From the IMG/VR virus record IMGVR_UViG_3300041402_000666, positions 1 to 32,753 of that record: a stretch of 32,753 nucleotides of DNA, one strand, 5' to 3'. The notes beneath the pieces were generated by a model. That model was not told where the DNA came from and made no database searches. It worked only from the letters and a program-made list of their open reading frames with translations. Positions within the stretch are counted from its first letter, which is position 1. Each line of letters opens with the position of its first letter. This DNA comes from a virus. A program made the translations under genes and the position numbers. Positions 3,430 to 11,675 of this stretch are shown piece after piece.

Positions 3430-3954
3430 TTAATCTTCATCAACAAGCGACCGCCTTCCGGGGTAATCGTCCATACCCCGGGTAAAGATAGGAAGTTTTT
3501 CTTCCCCGTCTTCGTTTTCCTGGGAACCTGCAAATACTCGTTCCAAGCGGCGGACTCGCCGACCGGCGCGAAGGCGGTTTTCCCTGATTGCTTTCAATGC
3601 CGACTTGAACTTGTTTCCGTAAGTGCTCGCCCTGGTTTCCCCAGGTTGTTCGACTTCTTCATCGGGGTTATAAACGGTTGCGGGCAACGTTGACAAAAGA
3701 ACCGCGGCCGCCCCATACGTATTGGCCGCCTTCAGATATTGGTACGCTGTTGCATAATCGGTTTCTGATACGGGTACGGTAAAACCAGCCTGATCCAATT
3801 CCCGATTCAAGTCCGCGGCAGCATTATCCAGTTCGGTTTCAACCTGTGCTAAGGAAGGGACCGTTCCCGTCGTGAAGGTTCGGCTTTCGACTAGGTCCCC
3901 GATAAGCCGTTCGACATCTTTATGTCCAGCATATGTATTTGTTCCAACACTCAT
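3430..3954 (-). CDS. Head-tail connector (adaptor) protein
   Basis: 174 aa, mainly helical, beginning MSVGTNTYAGHKDVERLIGD. The N-terminal 'DVERLIGDLVESRTF' followed by 'LAQVETELDNAAADLNREL' resembles gp6/gp15-type adaptors that bind under the portal. The C-terminus is basic then acidic (RAGRRVRRLERVF; SLVDED). It is the first gene of the neck group and starts after a GAGGGGG SD. The adhesin cassette separates it from the capsid genes, which is not the usual order and suggests an insertion there. Confidence 0.6.
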   Translation of the reverse strand: MSVGTNTYAGHKDVERLIGDLVESRTFTTGTVPSLAQVETELDNAAADLNRELDQAGFTVPVSETDYATAYQYLKAANTYGAAAVLLSTLPATVYNPDEEVEQPGETRASTYGNKFKSALKAIRENRLRAGRRVRRLERVFAGSQENEDGEEKLPIFTRGMDDYPGRRSLVDED

Positions 3955-7736: not shown

Positions 7737-8699
7737 CTAGCTCATAACCGATGCGAAGTAAACACCCAGGTCGGCTCCTGTGACTTTGAAGTCGAACGCG
7801 TGTTTCCCTTTCAGGAAATCGCGGTCGCGGTCTTCCTGGACTGTTGGGATAATGTTCACAGTCAGGTCCGAATCGTCAATGTTCCAAGCGAAGGTATAAC
7901 CTGCCGCTGGTTCCCGCAAAGCGGGTCGTTCCGGAACATACAGAAGAAGTGCGTTCTTCCCCCAAACAAAAGCCTGAGTTGCAGAACTAGCCCCTTCCAG
8001 GGATGTTCGCTGGACACATTTCCCAATAAGAAGCTTTTCAATGTCCAGGGCTTCAGCGACTTGTTCCTGAGTCAGAATGCCGCGCCCGGTGTATTTATAC
8101 ATATCCAGGAGTAACGGGTGCCGGCGAAGTTTGCTGAAGACCTGTTTGCCGATTACCATGGTATTCGGTTCAACACCCGTATTCTGAAGGACCGTATCGC
8201 GATAAGTGTCAATATCATCGGGCGGATCCGAGTTATCGTAATCGTCCCAAGCGACGAAATCGGTTCCAACGGTTGGGTTCGTGTCCCATATTGAGCCCGC
8301 GAAGACTGCCGTAGCAATCTGAATTTCGCGGTTCAGCATGAATTGATGGGCCAACCATTCGGTTCCTGTTTCTTCCAGTTGGACAGCAACGTCCTGGTTC
8401 TTTTTGTCTTCCCAAGGTATCGCGTAGCCCAGGTGATAAATGTCGCAGTAATATTCGTCAGTCGAAAGCTTCATACGACCTTCGGGGTAAGTGTCCCCGG
8501 GTGTTCGGAGTTCAACCTGATTAGTCAACCAGGACCCCTTGTCCCAAACGTAGTATTTATCGCTTTGCTTTTCCACAGGGACTAACGGTAAGACCTGGTC
8601 AGCGATAAAGGTTTTATTCCGATACGCAATAGCGATTTCTGACAAGGCTGCATCAATATGAATATCGCCTGCGGTCGGATTGCCAAAATGTTGTTTCAT
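7737..8699 (-). CDS. Major capsid protein
   Basis: 320 aa, the usual size for HK97-fold capsid proteins without a delta domain. It begins MKQHFGNPTAGDIHIDAALS and continues with an 'ALSEIAIAYRNKTFIADQVL' segment typical of one common phage capsid family. Helical 'LNREIQIATAVF' and 'VIGKQVFSKLRRHP' segments resemble the E-loop-to-spine helix and P-domain of that family. It follows the protease/scaffold and decoration genes, with SD GAAGGGGG. A 70-bp gap to the next gene contains only that gene's SD region. Confidence 0.85.
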   Translation of the reverse strand: MKQHFGNPTAGDIHIDAALSEIAIAYRNKTFIADQVLPLVPVEKQSDKYYVWDKGSWLTNQVELRTPGDTYPEGRMKLSTDEYYCDIYHLGYAIPWEDKKNQDVAVQLEETGTEWLAHQFMLNREIQIATAVFAGSIWDTNPTVGTDFVAWDDYDNSDPPDDIDTYRDTVLQNTGVEPNTMVIGKQVFSKLRRHPLLLDMYKYTGRGILTQEQVAEALDIEKLLIGKCVQRTSLEGASSATQAFVWGKNALLLYVPERPALREPAAGYTFAWNIDDSDLTVNIIPTVQEDRDRDFLKGKHAFDFKVTGADLGVYFASVMS

Positions 8700-9797: not shown

Positions 9798-10985
9798 GTC
9801 TTTGTTACCCCCTTCATTTGAGTGAGAATGCGCCTGGCCTTTTAACCAACCACAGACGCGGACAGGGTCAGTAATGCCAGGCTTGCCCGTCAGTTCAGAT
9901 ACACATTGATCGAAACCGACAGTCCCGACCCAGGCAATTAGAGGTTGAATATTCCCCTGGTATTCCTGGTCGGCATAAGCGCGGACTTCTTCGGCGACTT
10001 CCGCGTCGTCGCCCTGGTCAACGGAATGTTTACCGCCCACCATGCGTTCGAATAGTTCAGTAATGTTACCGAACAAAGCCCTGAATAATGGTGCGCCCTT
10101 CTTCCCCTTGATTATGTCCGCAACCTTACTTCGAATCTCGTCGAACTCGGATCGAAGCGTTGCAGGATCCGGTAGCTGATCGCCAATCTTAAACGACCAT
10201 ACCCGCGCACCTTTCCTAGTCCCGCCGAATACCAGGGCCTTTTCCAGGGTTGCCTTGTCAACTGCCGCTTCTTCCGCGCCCAATAAGGCAACCCCTGTTA
10301 TTACGGGACCGTAATCCCCGACCGTATCTTCAATCTCGACTGATACAGTCGAGTATTGGCCGCCTTCGATAAGTTTAGTTATCGGCTCGGGGATATTATC
10401 GAACGCTGCGACCAGAAGGTCGCCTTTGCGTTCGAGGGAAGTCATATTACCAATTTTGATTTGACCCTGACCGTTATCACCCGTTATCACTTCAATGGGT
10501 ACGCCCAGGGCTTCGGCTATTTTACGGTTGAATTCGTCAGACGTATGTCCGCATTTGATCGGCACTAGTAAAGGGACACCCGCCCGGAATGCCTTGACCA
10601 TTTCATCCAGATCATCGTTTTCCCAGGACTTTTCGAATCCCGCGCTATCAGTCCAAGTACCCGCAGCGAATATCGTGACTCCCGAAATCTTCTTCATGCT
10701 CGGAGCTTGAAACTGTTTCAACCAACCGAATCGGGTCAGTTCATAACCCGCTTCTTCAGCCGCAGTAGTCGCTTCCTGGTAAGCTATTGATTCCGATTTA
10801 CCAGCGACCAGAGCCACATCGTAAGCGTTCAGGAAAGGTTCGGGATACTTATCGGCTGCCATACCCGATGGCCAAGCTCCCGTTATCTTCTTATGTAACC
10901 AAGCGCAAAAGCCTTCAGGACTGGACTTGTCAGCGTTCTCTATAACACACTGGTCAAAATCAGCATACGGTCCGAATGGTGACAT
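9171..10985 (-). CDS. Prohead protease fused to scaffold
   Basis: About 604 aa from ATG at 10985, preferred over an upstream GTG at 10991 because GGGGG then lies 9 nt away. Residues 90-260 resemble Mu I/S49-like phage proteases, with VPIKCGHTS, LLVAAFDNIPEP and YSTVSVEIED; His and Ser of a serine protease are plausible but not proven. The second half is Ala/Glu-rich and helical (coiled coil, about 400-570) like scaffolds. A short Cys motif occurs twice: FDQCV...FCAWL near residue 10 and FDQCV...VCGWL near 358. A nested start at 9797 would give the scaffold alone. Confidence 0.75.
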   Translation of the reverse strand: MSPFGPYADFDQCVIENADKSSPEGFCAWLHKKITGAWPSGMAADKYPEPFLNAYDVALVAGKSESIAYQEATTAAEEAGYELTRFGWLKQFQAPSMKKISGVTIFAAGTWTDSAGFEKSWENDDLDEMVKAFRAGVPLLVPIKCGHTSDEFNRKIAEALGVPIEVITGDNGQGQIKIGNMTSLERKGDLLVAAFDNIPEPITKLIEGGQYSTVSVEIEDTVGDYGPVITGVALLGAEEAAVDKATLEKALVFGGTRKGARVWSFKIGDQLPDPATLRSEFDEIRSKVADIIKGKKGAPLFRALFGNITELFERMVGGKHSVDQGDDAEVAEEVRAYADQEYQGNIQPLIAWVGTVGFDQCVSELTGKPGITDPVRVCGWLKGQAHSHSNEGGNKDVKKLKAFKDMTADQIKALLVKDLAEKFQDEAEVTVGEIVEALPEEPGKGVADIAAALGLGAEATVEEMVAVIEALKAAAPEGEMSKEFAKATSRIEKLEAEKRIRDWEDKTREFSAIPGTAREHAVKLADIEAEAGKDAAETQYAALKEANRLTAEAMKIVGTARIAGPTDFDNEVSKYMAENKDASKAQAIKTVSKARPDLYFARRQ

Positions 10986-11160
10986 TCTCACTTACCCCCT
11001 TTTCGATGCCATTACGACGCCGCCAGTACTGAGTAATATTTTCGCCCGAGACAAGCGCAACCGCTCCGCAAACAAGGCAATCCTCAAAGGATTGATTCCC
11101 CATTCCGCGGGATAGTTCCTGATTGATAGTCATAGCATTTTGACAATTCGGGCACTCCAT
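10960..11160 (-). CDS. Small zinc-ribbon protein upstream of protease
   Basis: 66 aa from ATG at 11160 (GGGG 6 nt upstream). A longer frame reaching 11226 would run through the intrinsic terminator at 11178-11213, so I reject that start. CPNCQ (residues 3-7) and CLVCGAV give four zinc ligands; the C-terminus is basic (QYWRRRNGIEKG). The end overlaps the start of the protease gene by 26 nt. Function unknown. Confidence 0.6.
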   Translation of the reverse strand: MECPNCQNAMTINQELSRGMGNQSFEDCLVCGAVALVSGENITQYWRRRNGIEKGVSENVTIRTVC

Positions 11161-11177
11161 TTCAGACCCCAATTTAT

Positions 11178-11213
11178 AAAAAAACCCCGAAGGACGGTAA
11201 TCCGTCTTCGAGG
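11178..11213 (-). terminator. Intrinsic terminator after the RNA unit
   Basis: On the minus strand CCTCGAAGACGG-ATTA-CCGTCCTTCGGGG forms a stem of about 12 bp with one bulge, followed directly by seven Ts (11178-11184). This is a textbook rho-independent terminator. It lies just after the tRNA-like element, in the middle of the head operon, so downstream head genes need read-through or another promoter. Confidence 0.85.
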
Positions 11214-11242
11214 TTGGTCGGGCCAACTTTAAGGGCGGTCTT

Positions 11243-11317
11243 TGGTAACGGGCCGGGGAGTTGAACCCCGTTCTTCGGCTTATGGAACCGACGACTTTCC
11301 GGTTGTCCTACCCGCGC
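11243..11317 (-). tRNA. tRNA-like element, possible tRNA-Met(CAT), imperfect
   Basis: Reading the minus strand: a 3-bp D-stem (GAC/GTC) with a GG-containing loop; an anticodon stem TCGGT/GCCGA with loop TCCATAA (anticodon CAT, but C instead of U at position 33); a perfect T-arm CGGGG-TTCAACT-CCCCG; then a 7-nt 3' strand GCCCGTT, discriminator A and encoded CCA (11243-11245). The acceptor strands pair poorly: only CGGG/CCCG fits, and that is out of register. An outer GGCGG (11317-11321)/CCGCC (11234-11238) stem encloses the element. It may be a degenerate tRNA or a tRNA mimic. Confidence 0.55.
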
Positions 11318-11324
11318 CGCCTGT

Positions 11325-11340
11325 ATTCAATTGTTAAACC
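11325..11340. repeat. Degenerate direct repeat, left copy
   Basis: ATTCAATTGTTAAACC matches ATTCAGTTGTTAACC at 11463-11477, with one substitution and one indel. The two copies bracket the 123-nt structured RNA. Confidence 0.6.
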
Positions 11341-11463
11341 TATGTCAGCTAGTCACTCAGTTGCGGTATGTAAACGGTAGCTACTCCGCCCTACCCTTCA
11401 GTCACGTTCAACAGTTTTCTACCAGGATAACTGGCTCACTGTCGCTTTCGCGTAGCTGACATA
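11341..11463 (-). ncRNA. Candidate structured RNA with closing stem and pseudoknot
   Basis: As minus-strand RNA, a perfect 11-bp closing stem (TATGTCAGCTA, 11453-11463, with TAGCTGACATA, 11341-11351) encloses tightly abutting elements. These are a CGC-GAAA-GCG tetraloop hairpin (11443-11452), then a hairpin ACAGT...ACTGT (11411-11442) with inner GCCAG/CTGGT, then GGTAG/CTACC (11376-11395) whose loop holds GCGG that can pair with CCGC at 11363-11366, an H-type pseudoknot. Coding potential is absent. A promoter lies upstream and a tRNA-like element plus terminator downstream. I do not recognise an Rfam family. Confidence 0.62.
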
Positions 11464-11478
11464 TTCAGTTGTTAACCT
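11463..11478. repeat. Degenerate direct repeat, right copy
   Basis: ATTCAGTTGTTAACCT, the partner of the repeat at 11325-11340. It overlaps the stop codon of the 67-aa gene. The pair may be the trace of a duplication or of an inserted RNA element. Confidence 0.6.
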
Positions 11479-11675
11479 TTCGTCGCTTCTACGACCTGAT
11501 CTTTTGATTTAGTATGGTTCGTCTTTTTTAAAATGTCAAGTAAGCTGGAAATTGGGATAACGGCAACGTGCTTTTCCCCGTGCCGGCGGTCCTTAATAAC
11601 CAGGTTATCGCCGACGACCTGGGCCAGCTTTTCCGAACCACAGCAATCACAATAAACTATGTCGCCGTTCAGCAT
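11472..11675 (-). CDS. Small zinc-binding protein (CDCCG motif)
   Basis: 67 aa. The N-terminal VYCDCCGSEKLAQVVGDN followed by LVIKDRRHGEKH resembles small Com-like or 'CxxCGSEK' phage proteins found beside head genes; only one CxxC is present, with the later DRRHGEKH histidines as possible ligands. The C-terminal half is Lys-rich. The gene ends inside the repeat that flanks the structured RNA, and the promoter for that RNA lies within its 3' part. Confidence 0.6.
   Translation of the reverse strand: MLNGDIVYCDCCGSEKLAQVVGDNLVIKDRRHGEKHVAVIPISSLLDILKKTNHTKSKDQVVEATKG
11511..11539 (-). promoter_or_regulatory. Sigma70-type promoter in front of the structured RNA
   Basis: On the minus strand TTGACA (11534-11539), a 17-nt spacer, then CATACT (11511-11516). 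The -35 is perfect and the -10 matches 4/6. The predicted start near 11503 lies about 40 nt before the structured RNA, so RNA, tRNA-like element and terminator form a unit of about 325 nt. Confidence 0.55.

Follow-up and report, generated by a model that had tools for sequence, protein, structure and literature searches.

A structured RNA element of 123 nt (positions 11,341 to 11,463, minus strand) lies in a non-coding unit of a phage genome, with a copy of the boxA sequence on either side and a tRNA next to it. BoxA is the signal that bacteria place ahead of ribosomal RNA. The element is tentatively read, with a rough probability of 0.45, as a structured module that is specific to this lineage and belongs to a phage tRNA unit with boxA signals, located where a hairpin stands before boxA and probably acting in cis. 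Such action would most likely be on transcription or on the processing of the tRNA precursor.

The window, that is the whole stretch of DNA analysed, is a virus record of 32,753 bases whose main genes are on the minus strand, and it was assigned to a tailed phage by the portal, terminase, major capsid and head-maturation protease families found in it. The element is situated between a 67-aa gene, which ends at 11,472, and the next gene, the neighbouring genes being on the minus strand as well, and no open reading frame of at least 60 aa overlaps it on either strand. The original prediction of a structured RNA at this place had given neither the strand nor the two flanking boxA copies nor the tRNA. 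It had left a riboswitch, a ribozyme or a phage regulatory RNA open; a structured non-coding phage RNA is supported, because the promoter is conserved, the position is non-coding, a tRNA adjoins and a terminator lies downstream.

The tRNA unit in the window and in related phages

All parts of the unit are on the minus strand. It begins with a sigma-70-type promoter, TTGACA-N17-CATACT (11,511 to 11,539), which in most relatives reads TTGACA-N17-SATAAT, followed by a short hairpin, GGTCGTAGAAGCGACG (11,481 to 11,496), that overlaps the end of the 67-aa gene. The first boxA copy, GGTTAACAACTGAATA (11,462 to 11,477), contains the stop codon of this gene, and its final TA doubles as the first 2 nt of the element's closing stem. 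Beyond the element come the second copy, GGTTTAACAATTGAATA (11,324 to 11,340), of rrn type by its sequence, and a tRNA (11,243 to 11,316) enclosed by a stem of GGCGG (11,317 to 11,321) and CCGCC (11,234 to 11,238). The unit ends with the hairpin GTTGG-CCCGA-CCAAC (11,213 to 11,227) and an intrinsic-terminator-like stem with a T7 tail (11,178 to 11,212), which a simple terminator scan did not list. An 88-aa open reading frame (10,960 to 11,226), as listed, begins within this terminator region; its true start is more likely the downstream ATG of MECPNCQNAM.

Relatives were collected from IMG/VR by terminase-, motif- and head-gene-based searches, and 18 distinct complete units, the window excluded, were compared. 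The order is conserved in all of them. A TTGACA-N17-TATAAT-like promoter, lying inside the 67-aa gene at its 3' end, is usually followed by a hairpin, and then come one TTAACAAnnGAATA, GGCGG, an optional tRNA, CCGCC, a hairpin GTTGG..CCRAC and a terminator. The GTTGG hairpin is paired in 100% of cells, the inner helix of the terminator in 98% and the pre-boxA hairpin in 84% (16 sequences), with covariation not above that of shuffles for any of the three. This constancy of promoter, boxA, optional tRNA and terminator argues for a cis-acting module, and the units of L042 and L078, which have no hairpin and a degenerate motif, argue against it.

The 123-nt element is present in the window only, and the sites in all 18 relatives are empty. 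Each relative has one boxA copy and the window has two, which flank the element, as would be expected of a module added to the unit. The two copies are not the same: the first resembles the context in L003, the second has AGGTTTAACAA in common with L007, and one indel and one substitution separate the 17-nt flanks of the element. Extra folded sequence also precedes boxA in the close relative L007, as a different insert directly before the motif (about 8225-8340), and in L018, as a longer hairpin just before it; hence, the place before boxA appears to be where such units gain structure, which favours the same reading. Homology of the L007 insert to the element was considered and is not claimed (p about 0.02-0.07 when the hairpin common to both is counted and 0.08-0.27 when it is left out), which weighs on the other side. 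A relationship of the element to the tRNA unit was also examined, and no similarity was found (p 0.42).

The tRNA is initiator-like, with C1 facing T72 (a trait of initiator tRNAs), the anticodon CAT and an encoded CCA, features that are kept in nine versions from relatives. It passes the Rfam tRNA model weakly (31.3 bits, with a gathering score of 29), ARAGORN makes no call at this position, and the anticodon loop has a C at position 33. The tRNA occurs in L003, L007, L009, L011, L012, L045, L049 and L018 (cut by the contig end in the last) and is absent from the units of the other 11 relatives; its gain or loss within the GGCGG/CCGCC stem has happened repeatedly among relatives.

A near-palindrome, GACCAGGYCG, follows the promoter in eleven relatives (L008, L009, L011, L012, L013, L017, L023, L025, L045, L049 and L053), and just past the terminator stands its complement CGRCCTGGTC or a sequence close to it. 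The two could form an operator pair or a long-range helix. The window, L002, L003 and L015 lack the 3' copy. In the distant relative L084, a short unit of TTGACA, TATAAT, hairpin and T-run stands near 3700 just before the protease gene, the same place as that of the unit in the window.

Identity of the boxA repeats

The pattern CTTTRAMAAYTGAATA was found at nine sites in 8 of 151 Chloroflexota genomes, and the reversed control pattern at none. On placing the rRNA genes with Rfam, CTTTAACAATTGAATA was located 33 nt before 16S in L202 and CTTTAAAAACTGAATA 28 nt before 23S in L197, and in L201 the 23S begins about 85 nt past the motif. The surroundings of the sites in L198 and L199 are the same sequence as in L197, and in L200 the complement of the motif lies within the 16S trailer. 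In an Anaeromyxobacter genome, TTTGAAAACTGAATA is found about 110 nt before 16S. The phage repeats that flank the element are by their sequence rrn-type boxA, since the same sequence precedes 16S or 23S by 28-85 nt in Chloroflexota. The phage unit of L018 carries the exact form of L197, which supports a boxA-bearing module further.

The boxA match is a lead to a Chloroflexota host; GTDB genomes yielded no close prophage, the terminase relatives there having at most 42% identity. The boxA consensus of gamma-proteobacteria is GYTCTTTAANA (PMC5725501). The phage boxA is without the GYTC part, a point against the cis-acting module. In E. coli, boxB, boxA and boxC head the rrn operon and recur ahead of 23S, and 16S is enclosed by a leader-trailer helix (PMC10250234); boxB-boxA and this helix are the rrn precedent for a module of the proposed kind.

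On comparing two different genomes, it was observed that the boxA strand of the 16S leader in L202 is complementary to the 16S trailer of L200 over about 25 nt, and boxA may thus lie inside the leader-trailer helix in such Chloroflexota genomes. Separately, GCACTTTAACAAYTGAATA (or TACTTTAACAACTGAATA) stands shortly before a start codon in L217, L055, L221, L227 (two copies), L235, L236, L239 and L247, and in many of these viral contigs a sequence closely resembling CTGGGCGGGTAGGAAAGGAG comes next. Such phages may commonly have rrn-type boxA as an operon leader.

Fold of the element and its possible roles

The element folds on the minus strand with a minimum free energy of -42.3 kcal/mol (z -3.5 to -3.6 against shuffles); the plus strand gave z -1.8 to -2.3, and the interior of that strand alone +0.4. 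It is closed by an 11-bp perfect inverted repeat, TATGTCAGCTA/TAGCTGACATA, which ends exactly at 11,341 and 11,463 and pairs with a probability of 0.95, in keeping with a structured module. The 101-nt minus-strand interior without this stem reached z -1.56, and 21 of 300 shuffles folded equally well. The closing stem is the only part of the fold beyond chance and carries nearly all the signal. The ordered pairing, which had been held unlikely to arise by chance, is so for the closing stem and the fold as a whole; the folding of the interior does not surpass that of shuffles at a strict level, which counts against the cis-acting module. An 11-bp inverted repeat with such spacing occurs on average 0.55 times per shuffled window (32 kb) and is therefore not rare; the element is noteworthy because the ends of the repeat are also those of an insertion that has boxA repeats on either side.

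The pairings named in the original prediction, the 11-bp closing stem among them, can all be read on the minus strand, with different weights. ACAGT/ACTGT pairs with a probability of 0.99 and GGTAG/CTACC with 0.61, and the CGC-GAAA-GCG hairpin is a minor conformer (0.20) in competition with CGCG/CGTG (0.67). A GCCAG/CTGGT helix, absent from that list, reaches 0.99. The proposed H-type pseudoknot was not confirmed, a 4-nt loop-to-downstream match such as GCGG/CCGC being at chance level (34% of shuffles). In a fold of 361 nt, part of the first boxA copy pairs with the start of the second (GTTAA/TTAAC) and extends the closing helix; this pairing would compete with Nus binding, a hint that stands against the favoured reading.

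No Rfam class had been recognised for the element, and this was borne out with Rfam 15: in the window no gathering-score match to it was found, and none lies inside it even at E <= 10. Exact 19-20-mers taken at three places in the element had no match in IMG/VR, in scans that detect near-identical copies only and that distant homologues could escape, and four matches to its terminal-repeat pattern did not resemble it. No real match was obtained with blastn in INPHARED and PLSDB (16 Arthrobacter phage matches at E = 5 were attributed to chance), and only short, chance-level ones in 393 genomes of one Chloroflexota class. A single-sequence covariance model, an insensitive instrument, recovered only the element itself from these 393 genomes and 89 sequence sources. 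The element is in single copy in its genome and is known from one phage record; it is an orphan, a structured RNA class with one member, and selection on its structure is not demonstrable because there is only one sequence.

On the reading favoured here, the minus-strand unit would be transcribed from its own promoter through the rrn-type boxA antitermination signals and the stem-held tRNA to the terminator. The window would contain two structure-boxA modules in tandem, the 123-nt RNA replacing the hairpin in the second, and the element and one boxA were probably acquired together by recombination at the boxA repeat. The RNA would fold while emerging, and boxA would recruit NusB/S10 to RNA polymerase. 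The closing stem may insulate the domain and mark where the tRNA precursor begins at its 5' side, a part played for rRNA by the leader-trailer helix.

A small RNA acting in trans is rather unlikely. The element would be excised like the tRNA and act alone, perhaps by decoying a host protein or in the manner of a phage sRNA, with boxA signals and promoter serving its expression only. By analogy, a compact domain within its own stem, beside a tRNA and with a boxA before each, would have the layout of rrn stable RNAs; however, no homologue was found in IMG/VR, INPHARED, PLSDB or the 393 Chloroflexota genomes, and all relatives dispense with the element.

Slightly less probable again is an insertion that is mobile or without function, either MITE-like, with the 11-bp terminal inverted repeats and a boxA target-site duplication, or a neutral product of recombination. 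The perfect terminal repeats, the flanking direct repeats, the absence from all relatives and the non-significant interior fold are what such an insertion would leave, but the direct repeat occurs in every relative as a conserved motif that looks functional, and the second copy shares AGGTTTAACAA with L007 and is not identical to the first. There is one genomic copy where a MITE would have many, the four pattern matches in IMG/VR are unrelated, and Pfam scans of 30 window proteins found no transposase. Nor did these scans find a reverse transcriptase, which would adjoin a retron ncRNA.

It is improbable, though more far-reaching, that some phages, whose hosts may be Chloroflexota, imitate an rRNA operon in miniature, in the order promoter, boxA, stem-enclosed RNA, boxA, stem-enclosed initiator-like tRNA and terminator, and that the 123-nt RNA is the first of a new trans-acting class matured like rRNA. 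A riboswitch or a self-cleaving ribozyme, of a class not yet described, is very improbable: the fold has several helices and a possible pseudoknot and fits no Rfam class, but the pseudoknot is at chance level, the element has no relatives in the collections searched and precedes a tRNA and a terminator and not a switchable gene, and nothing positive was found for either.

Comparison with known systems

The 123-nt RNA stays an orphan until a second sequence turns up. MITEs are likewise short, with terminal inverted repeats and flanking direct repeats; the element differs in being single-copy, in having non-identical boxA copies as direct repeats and in that no transposase was found. GOLLD and ROOL are structured non-coding RNAs associated with phages, often near tRNAs, and are several hundred nucleotides long. 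The element has 123 nt and no Rfam match, and the likeness is that of a structured phage RNA near a tRNA. The nut sites of lambdoid phages also show a phage using boxA beside a hairpin for antitermination; here, the hairpin comes before boxA, which is the rrn order, no N-like protein was identified, and the signals precede a tRNA and not early genes.

Compared with the leader and spacer of bacterial rrn operons, the phage unit has no rRNA, its RNAs being the orphan and the tRNA; the closing stem is only 11 bp long, and the terminator follows at once. The promoter, the hairpin, the boxA sequence and the stem-enclosed stable RNA are alike, as is the repetition of boxA before a second RNA. The unit points to phages that use a host rRNA antitermination signal in a unit with a tRNA and a structured RNA of their own; service of boxA to phage stable RNAs becomes testable, and the form of boxA offers a lead to the hosts of uncultured phages.
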